A DNA stretch of 64,000 nucleotides from Sphingomonas sp. DG1-23 (lineage in GTDB: Bacteria; Pseudomonadota; Alphaproteobacteria; Sphingomonadales; Sphingomonadaceae), in contig NZ_JAVAMA010000001.1 of the NCBI RefSeq assembly GCF_030730875.1, positions 558,001 to 622,000 of the forward strand, in the 5' to 3' direction. Under the pieces are notes generated by a model that saw only the letters and a list, made by a program, of their open reading frames with translations, was not told the DNA's origin and searched no databases. The position numbers and the translations under genes were made by a program. How positions within the stretch are numbered: the stretch's first letter is position 1; every line of letters begins with the position of its first letter. Below are positions 26,690-28,114 of this stretch, in pieces.

Positions 26690-27061
26690 TCAGAAAATCA
26701 CCGTCCGGATCTGGATATATTCGCCGCTACCGGCGGAATCGCCGCAGATCCCGATAAAGCTGATCGGCTTGCCGGTCGAGCGCGCCGTCAGCGCAGCCGA
26801 CAACACCGCCTCTGCCCCGGGCAGGCTCTCGTCGATATAGGCATAGAGTGCGCCGGCGCAGCCGGTGGCCCCCCAGCCGCCATCCGCGCGCATATAGTAA
26901 GAGGATCCCCCCGGCCCGGCCCCGATCAGAATCTGGGATATGATCTTCTTCTGGGTGGTGACGGTATCGCCGATGGCACCGTGCGAAGAAGCGGCTGCCG
27001 TCAGGCAAAGTATAAAGAAGGCGGCAGAGCGCAATCTTCTCCAATGGGATCCGGCAGCCAT
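26690..27061 (-). CDS. Small secreted protein of unknown function
   Basis: 123 residues from the second ATG at 27061, 7 bases after ggagg; the ATG at 27067 is too close to it. N-terminal signal peptide (AAFFILCLTAAASSHG). The mature part has GGWGATGCAGALYAYIDES, a second cysteine in ISFIGICGDSAGSGEY, and ends in YIQIRTVIF; the two cysteines could form a disulfide. Similar small secreted proteins occur in many Proteobacteria without known function. It converges with the prsT end. Confidence 0.68.
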   Translation of the reverse strand: MAAGSHWRRLRSAAFFILCLTAAASSHGAIGDTVTTQKKIISQILIGAGPGGSSYYMRADGGWGATGCAGALYAYIDESLPGAEAVLSAALTARSTGKPISFIGICGDSAGSGEYIQIRTVIF

Positions 27062-27189
27062 CCTCATTCCTCCGTTTGTCCGTATATCGATTCGATCAGC
27101 CTAGCCTGTCCAGGGTCCGCTTCGGAAAATATGTAGCGGCGGCCCTGGCGGTGTGATTCCCACCCGGCCGCGGAGCGCGCACATCCTCC

Positions 27190-27234
27190 CGAAATGAAAG
27201 AGGCCGCCGGAACCCCTCAGGGATTCCGGCGACC
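27190..27234 (-). terminator. Possible minus-strand terminator
   Basis: Stem cgccggaa (27205-27212) / ttccggcg (27224-27231) with inner ccct/aggg pairs. Read on the minus strand it is followed by tctttcatttc. It could end the transcript carrying the 18-codon ORF at 27373-27429. Confidence 0.5.
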
Positions 27235-27372
27235 TCCGACATGGTCAGCGGCCGGAGAGTTCCAGCCCGGGAGACCATGCGGGCCGCTGTTCTGCTGGCT
27301 GGCGAGCGTTGATTGGAGGAGAATACCTCCCGCTAGCCCCACGGACGGAGGACTTCCGCCCGCGCCCCCAGA

Positions 27373-27429
27373 TCAGCGGCGCGTCTCCCGAACGAACTGA
27401 ACCGACCCCATTGCTGAACCATGAGACAT
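27373..27429 (-). CDS. Candidate 18-residue ORF behind a near-perfect Shine-Dalgarno
   Basis: On the minus strand gaaaggaggtgatcc (complement of 27431-27445) precedes ATG 27429 by 2-6 bases. It is complementary to the 3' end of 16S rRNA over about 15 bases, far more than any other gene in the window. The frame encodes MSHGSAMGSVQFVRETRR and stops at 27373. A hairpin (cgtggc/gccacg, 27461-27480 region) lies upstream of the leader, and TTGTTC-N17-CAAGAT is a weak promoter candidate further up. It could be a regulatory leader peptide, a dual-function small RNA, or a chance match. Family unknown. Confidence 0.4.
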   Translation of the reverse strand: MSHGSAMGSVQFVRETRR

Positions 27430-27586
27430 CGGATCACCTCCTTTCGCTAGTTGAAGAACGAGCGTGGCTTGCGGCCACGGACGAATCTTGAATCATCCGG
27501 AATCGCAGAACAAGTCTTGTTTTACACCGAAGATGGTGCGATTCTTAGAGTTCTGTGGTTCGCCGGATGCGGACCCATCGCGCGAC

Positions 27587-28114
27587 TCAGCCGCGACAAT
27601 CCTCCGCCACCCGCAAGATTTCGGCCCAGGCCGGCACGACGAGCGTCGGCGCGCCGGCACCCTCGATCACCACCCGCCCGCGACTATAGCCCATCGCGTC
27701 GATCAGATTGTCGCGCGCGCCGAGATCGGCGGCCGCGCCGGTCGTCGTCGGGGTGACGGCGAGAGTGCGCGCCATGCTGGTGGTGCGGACGGTCAGGCTC
27801 GGCGCGGCGGCGTGGCGGGACAGCAGGATGCGGCCGCGCGTCCGATCGCAGCGTAACGTCAGTTCGGGCGCCTGGGCGGGCACCCCGAACGCGGCGACGC
27901 TGCCCTGCCCGTCCTGCCGCCAGCTCCAGCTGCCCGGCGTCAGCGGCCAATCGCGCCAATCGGCGCTGCGCGGCGGCGGCGCCGGCGTGGGTGCCGGGGT
28001 CGGCGCGGCGGGTACGGGCACGGGCGGCGCGGGCCGCACAGGGGGCTGGCTGGGCGCCACGCAGGCGGCGAGCGACAAGGCCAGGGCGGAGCTGGCGAAC
28101 ACGGAACGACGCAT
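27587..28114 (-). CDS. Putative lipoprotein, Pro/Ala-rich linker
   Basis: 175 residues from ATG 28114. Signal peptide with lipobox-like SLAAC (cysteine near residue 18), then a linker of alternating Pro and Ala/Val (about 20-48), then a compact domain. That domain contains DWPLTPGSWSWRQDGQGSVA, CDRTRGRILLSRHA and, at the end, VVPAWAEILRVAEDC. Outer-membrane or periplasmic lipoprotein of unknown function, a type common in sphingomonads. Confidence 0.7.
   Translation of the reverse strand: MRRSVFASSALALSLAACVAPSQPPVRPAPPVPVPAAPTPAPTPAPPPRSADWRDWPLTPGSWSWRQDGQGSVAAFGVPAQAPELTLRCDRTRGRILLSRHAAAPSLTVRTTSMARTLAVTPTTTGAAADLGARDNLIDAMGYSRGRVVIEGAGAPTLVVPAWAEILRVAEDCRG

Follow-up and report, generated by a model that had tools for sequence, protein, structure and literature searches.

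A CC2171-related RNA gene of Alphaproteobacteria that joins a full 16S rRNA tail complement to a short reading frame, and its possible gating by translation

The minus strand of the window, the 64,000-nucleotide stretch of the Sphingomonas sp. DG1-23 genome analyzed here, contains a real and conserved RNA gene that is a variant of a known, little-studied family, CC2171 of Rfam (RF01867). Its anatomy, its conservation, the pairing potential of its relatives and the retention of a short open reading frame (ORF) in them are established by computation. The best overall explanation of the locus, to which we assign a probability of about 0.45, is a translation-gated regulatory RNA: a stand-alone mini-mRNA or small RNA gene whose state would depend on the loading of ribosomes. 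Its features, in order along the RNA, are as follows.

27510-27520, minus strand: palindrome ACAAGACTTGT, conserved in the genus; the CTTG that is the likely -35 element of the RNA's putative promoter overlaps it
27479-27463, minus strand: 5' hairpin of the RNA, from the window scan and the stems of the genus
27445-27431, minus strand: complement of the 16S rRNA 3' tail (an extended Shine-Dalgarno sequence), 15 bases, GAAAGGAGGTGATCC, by alignment to the published alphaproteobacterial tail
27429-27373, minus strand: 18-codon ORF MSHGSAMGSVQFVRETRR and its stop, with the ATG at 27429, one base after the complement
27413-27423, minus strand: 5' arm of helix A, CAUGGUUCAGC, codons 3-6, from folding and permutation tests in relatives
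27402-27407, minus strand: 5' arm of helix B, GGUCGG, codons 8-10, from folding and permutation tests in relatives
27315-27331, minus strand: middle hairpin GGGAGGUAUUCUCCUCC, with within-genus covariation
27273-27279, minus strand: CAUGGUC (CATGGTC in the DNA), a possible second partner of GACCAUG, from the same-genus alignment
27240-27255, minus strand: pre-terminator strand CCGGCCGCUGACCAUG, which supplies the 3' sides of helices B and A and is identical in 34 sequences from the genus
27237-27199, minus strand: stem of the intrinsic terminator, 18 pairs, followed by a T-rich tail to about 27189, from the window scan and within-genus covariation

The earlier note had pointed to a complement of the 16S rRNA tail of about 15 bases in front of an 18-codon ORF, unrivaled by any other gene in the window, and all of this holds: GAAAGGAGGTGATCC is the 15-base complement of the S. 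meliloti tail GGCUGGAUCACCUCCUUUCU, and the next best in-register match in the window has 10 bases and lacks the GGAGG core. The reference is the S. meliloti oligonucleotide as given in PMC6943124 and not the tail of the host species; three patterns for the latter found no match in the host's own genome or its sister genomes, from whose assemblies the rRNA is perhaps missing. The 14-base core AAAGGAGGTGATCC has a single occurrence in the host's 4.59 Mb assembly. Chance as the origin of the complement is rejected on three counts: the 15-mer is expected 7e-5 times per window (from base composition, both strands), each positive genome has a single site, and none of the 213 genomes sampled outside the class has one. 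The flanking structures proposed alongside it exist as well: the hairpin ends 17 bases before the complement rather than about 30, and the terminator-like stem lies about 135 bases past the stop codon. The terminator scan returned two terminator-like sites against 0.7 in shuffles. The surrounding gap, described as empty and 525 bases long, does measure about 520 bases, between an ORF ending at 27587 and one starting at 27067; two plus-strand ORFs on the mechanical list (27451-27756 and 27464-27856) extend into it and are taken as spurious. At the gathering threshold Rfam gave no match in the window, and the tRNA scan of the window offered no lead.

A DNA search with 376 bases of the locus, which like the RF01867 search is independent of 16S-complement patterns, matched the host genome and 34 of the 36 other genomes of the genus, the two without a match being 84% and 81% complete; it matched none of 24 genomes from elsewhere in the order. 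Of these 35 matching genomes 34 were aligned, the 35th element being interrupted at the edge of a contig; they show no variation across the 36 bases from GCGAAAGG to GGTTCAGCA or in TCCGGCCGCTGACCATG, directly 5' of the terminator. A block pattern with TGTCTCAT is present in 177 of 296 genomes of the order, and GAAAGGAGGTGATCCN[A/G]TG occurs in 56 of 385 genomes of the class, at one site per genome, with none for the reversed-pattern control. The latter pattern was found in 44 of 299 genomes in a sample of the phylum, which a count by hand divides into 44 of 86 from the host's own class and 0 of 213 from the others. The complement is 15 bases long in all 130 elements of the subfamily to which the window element belongs and 11-18 bases long in 54 elements of the other type, figures in which its presence as such is by construction, since the patterns used to collect most element sets already contained a portion of the complement. 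At least 184 distinct elements with ORFs of at most 40 codons served for the helix, codon, leader, fold and neighbor tests; a recount free of the ORF-length limit gave at least 198, and one subfamily analysis comprised 131 sequences with a complete 3' block. A lack of conservation in relatives would have counted against the earlier note, and conservation is present. Of the three ideas in the note (ribosome sequestration, a highly made peptide, part of a regulatory RNA), a ribosome-binding or regulatory RNA is supported by the wide conservation of the site, the structure and the match to a known small RNA family; sequestration itself would be one possible role.

The segment has a predicted folding energy of -157.6 kcal/mol, where shuffled sequences average -123 (z -6.6; 0 of 200 shuffles as low). 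In helix A, CAUGGUUCAGC (codons 3-6) can pair with GCUGACCAUG, directly 5' of the terminator; in helix B, GGUCGG (codons 8-10) can pair with CCGGCC, which adjoins the 3' arm of helix A. The RF01867 helix CAUUGUC:GACAAUG occupies the position of helix A, so that subfamilies differ in the paired sequences but agree in where the helix lies. Scored over 51 elements of the other type, helix A reaches 782 where permutations average 617, and helix B reaches 1019 where they average 752 (0 of 2000 permutations in each case); a hand-picked set of 28 elements, one for each of 28 families, gives 419 against 315 and 579 against 421 (0 of 5000 permutations in each case). These terminator-based tests omit 29 of the 184 elements, in which a simple finder saw no terminator, and in some others its choice is doubtful. 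For the MSS, MSR, MSHS and MSHV groups (5, 2, 2 and 1 elements), cis pairing was not above that of swapped-strand pairs. Changes on both sides affect 20 of the 61 pairs of the genus consensus, with the covariation coming from the middle hairpin and the terminator; helices A and B lack within-genus covariation because they are invariant there.

In the consensus fold of the genus, helix A is missing and the 16S complement is preferentially paired to the ORF. When single sequences with the leader trimmed to 30 bases are folded, just 24 of 155 elements keep the complement largely unpaired, and codons 3-6 are chiefly in long-range pairing in 81 of the 155. Several conformations of the RNA may, on these models, compete with one another. 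The CATGGTC at 27273-27279 copies the start of the pairing arm of the ORF and is a potential competitor for the same strand. A free partner scan for this arm, which extended beyond the terminator, gave no useful signal. The 5' hairpin has a stem of at least six pairs in 29 of 33 genus elements, formed by 27 distinct stems, against 22% of shuffles; over the whole subfamily the signal in the 50-base leader is weak (mean z -0.72, with 32 of 117 below -1).

Exactly 18 codons are found in 117 of the 130 distinct subfamily elements with ORFs of up to 40 codons, and these 117 end in TAA (67), TGA (39) or TAG (11). In the 28-family set, taken after removal of ORFs of more than 40 codons, frame 0 is open through codon 18 in all 28 elements, frame 1 in 10 and frame 2 in 19, and the ORF ends at codons 18-30 in 27 of the 28, against 19% of shuffles. 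Once the length limit is lifted, seven of 198 elements exceed 40 codons, five have 15-16, and none has fewer than 15. In five Azospirillum elements (L061, L078, L084, L112 and L114) and in element L194, the 16S complement and an ATGTCTCATGG start precede ORFs of 56-59 codons, which have secreted-protein-like beginnings and end ahead of a terminator. Across the 117 ORFs of 18 codons, codons 1-4 and 9 are fixed at all three positions and codon 5 is fixed in 116; this fixed set consists of the start, codon 2 and the codons that take part in pairing. Codon 10 shows its greatest variation at the third position, whereas seven of the eight codons 11-18 vary least there. This pattern is unlike that of a selected peptide. 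Relatives from different families retain the ORF and have little peptide sequence in common; with ORF and stop kept while the peptides differ, it seems that translation rather than the peptide has been selected. Judged from these sequence patterns, the ORF is probably translated.

Several other readings have to be weighed against a translation-gated RNA. One is that the RNA is a trap or sponge, in which the 16S complement binds and titrates 30S subunits or RNAs with a CCUCC motif (such as the alpha-r8 small RNAs) and the ORF only keeps the site ribosome-like. The complement is indeed much longer than initiation requires and is the only such site per genome, and sponge RNAs with G/A-rich loops against UUUCCUCCCU are known from Caulobacter according to the account in PMC12559287. 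A pure trap, however, has no need of the conserved ORF length and stop, the site is often predicted to be paired, and a single RNA could presumably make a difference to the ribosome pool only at very high abundance; we consider this reading unlikely. Quite unlikely is a plain small-protein gene, whose strong site would make much of the 18-residue peptide and whose structures would be ordinary mRNA ends. The conserved ORF, its three kinds of stop codon and the Azospirillum relatives, with 57-59-codon ORFs and a secreted-protein-like start, would fit such a gene, but the paired codons have fixed third positions, codons 11-18 vary least at theirs, and the peptide sequences are unlike between families. 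We reject it as the main reading on the pattern of codon-position variation. The suggestion in the earlier note of a highly made peptide loses ground both to this pattern and to the relatives that keep the ORF with little shared peptide sequence.

The window element matches RF01867 over all 159 of its 159 model positions with 31.0 bits (E 4.4e-5 in a 291-base search); other searches gave 28.5 bits, and 28.2 bits with E 7.7e-4 at genome scale. It has the conserved 5' block of the family, CAAC...GAAAGGAGGUGAUCC...UGUCUCAU, the full span of positions 1-159 and the terminator, as well as the long-range helix between the ORF start and the pre-terminator strand, which is missing from the genus consensus fold. 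Both types of element coexist in one genome among relatives. Against these likenesses, its 28-31 bits fall short of the gathering cut-off of 75 bits, its middle is longer, its helix A is CAUGGUUCAGC:GCUGACCAUG instead of CAUUGUC:GACAAUG, and its 5' hairpin and upstream palindrome are not found in the other type; furthermore, the Rfam entry is an RNA gene, whereas the reading of an ORF in it is our own. Because Rfam's own cut-off is not reached, we call the window element a sister variant and do not count it among the members of RF01867. The relationship with CC2171 and the long-range pairing, taken jointly, are very probable. RF01867 matches at E of at most 0.001 occur in 61 of 289 genomes of the class, nine of these above the cut-off, and in 1 of 14 control genomes, that of Caulobacter vibrioides. 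The host genome itself has two better matches, both CC2171-type elements: one of 69 bits at contig C10:9959-10125 (L174, L189), with the ORF start MSHCQ, and one of 66 bits at contig C17:141482-141632 (L032), with the ORF start MSHCH, the latter sitting after a gene that reads like a putative DNA polymerase III alpha chain.

Caulobacter small RNAs were reportedly the subject of a study by Landt et al. in 2008. Text searches of the literature for CC2171 and RF01867 gave relevant matches only in the Rfam 15 table of improved structures (PMC11701678) and in a Mesorhizobium list that includes an RF01867 relative, apparently with a sequenced product of 215 bases (PMC5596092). The literature search turned up no function for CC2171 and, among the matches listed from open-licence papers, no description of an ORF or a full 16S complement in the CC2171-type family; the matches listed for the motif and peptide strings comprised one 16S-oligonucleotide paper and others that are apparently unrelated. 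From the locus numbering we infer that CC2171 is CCNA_R0051, which is recorded in PMC6237742 as 209 bases between CCNA_02253 and CCNA_02254, with its own promoter, and as up 4.4-fold under mitomycin C in an unspecific response; PMC5988900 gives it under G1. Two formerly predicted non-coding RNAs of Caulobacter turned out to be translated in the ribosome profiling described in PMC4117421. The filing of CC2171 as a small RNA family in Rfam, the element's own terminator and the sequenced product of the Mesorhizobium relative would all suit an RNA that simply base-pairs with mRNA targets and has the ORF as a by-product. The ORF is, however, retained far more than in shuffles, and CCNA_R0051 is absent from the table of Hfq-enriched RNAs in PMC11005374, making this reading very unlikely.

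Upstream of the element, on the same strand, is a short gene for a putative lipoprotein (window 27587-28108, minus strand). Such a gene precedes 108 of the 116 subfamily elements whose flanking sequence is long enough and one of 53 other-type elements. Searches of Pfam gave no match for this upstream gene or for the downstream ORF (26690-27067, minus strand, 125 codons), and the neighbor search around other-type elements found no common gene. A leader or attenuator of the downstream gene, though it would explain why hairpins and a terminator, with possible alternative pairings, come after a short ORF, is extremely improbable, and the leader-peptide attenuator is rejected because a conserved downstream gene is missing (the commonest same-strand downstream family occurs at 30 of 188 loci, against 128 for an upstream family), the terminator, moreover, forming in both states. 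In the genus, 32 of 33 elements have the palindrome ACAAGNCTTG 74-78 bases ahead of the 16S complement; it also occurs, at varying distance, in 48 of 95 other subfamily elements, and in none of 54 other-type elements. Its fixed distance in the genus is consistent with a promoter belonging to the RNA itself, although the scan for sigma-70-like promoters found none; the palindrome ACAAGACTTGT of the window element is possibly an operator.

We return to the preferred reading, a translation-gated regulatory RNA. The gene, presumably transcribed in this genome, would stand alone and give rise to a structured, CC2171-related RNA of about 285 bases that is simultaneously a mini-mRNA. A 16S site of 15 bases should anchor a 30S subunit, and through the complete complement 30S subunits or ribosomes would grip the RNA; the short ORF (18 codons here, mostly 15-30 in relatives) would probably be translated, and the sequence of the peptide would hardly matter. 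Pairing between the first half of the ORF and the pre-terminator strand would form a rod closed from codon 3. The footprint of an initiating ribosome covers codon 3. Since helix A starts within this footprint, a bound ribosome and the closed rod would be mutually exclusive, and this exclusion between ribosome entry and the closed fold is the function that we propose: the input would be ribosome loading, and the output either the pre-terminator strand in its freed or closed state or the time for which the RNA persists. The switch step is plausible but tentative. Downstream, action in trans and control of RNA lifetime are both possible, and action in trans taken for itself is doubtful. Start-proximal extended pairing is described in S. 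aureus as directing start selection (PMC13009471). A still wider proposal is that the family constitutes a widespread alphaproteobacterial ribosome-sensing RNA, maintained as the single long 16S-tail complement ahead of a start codon, which would report the condition of the 16S tail or the presence of free 30S subunits, with loading on a peptide-indifferent ORF opening a long-range clamp and so setting the activity or lifetime of the RNA; we deem this rather unlikely.

These genomes very rarely have so long a complement of the 16S tail in front of a start codon, yet many alphaproteobacterial families have kept one, along with a tiny ORF and the folding partner of that ORF. This is a clean natural setting in which to study whether the loading of ribosomes can itself serve an RNA as a signal. 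For CC2171, the window element yields a testable idea—it suggests that the RF01867 family is a mini-mRNA, with Sphingomonas relatives below the Rfam cut-off.

Among known systems, BbsR14 of Bartonella, with its anti-Shine-Dalgarno loops as described in PMC7717549, is set aside on account of its opposite strand sense. The rpsU case of Flavobacterium is a comparison of working principle only: extended pairing with the 16S tail there senses the state of the ribosome, namely ribosomes without bS21, as presented in PMC9976891. That mRNA encodes the ribosomal protein bS21, whereas the window ORF has 18 codons and encodes no such protein. Pos19 of Rhodobacter sphaeroides, compared by its description in PMC5036791, differs in being described as restricted to R. 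sphaeroides strains and in that its translation persists after loss of its Shine-Dalgarno sequence. Like the window element, it is an alphaproteobacterial RNA (219 bases) with a short ORF, translated in its case, and a terminator, and it regulates independently of its peptide.
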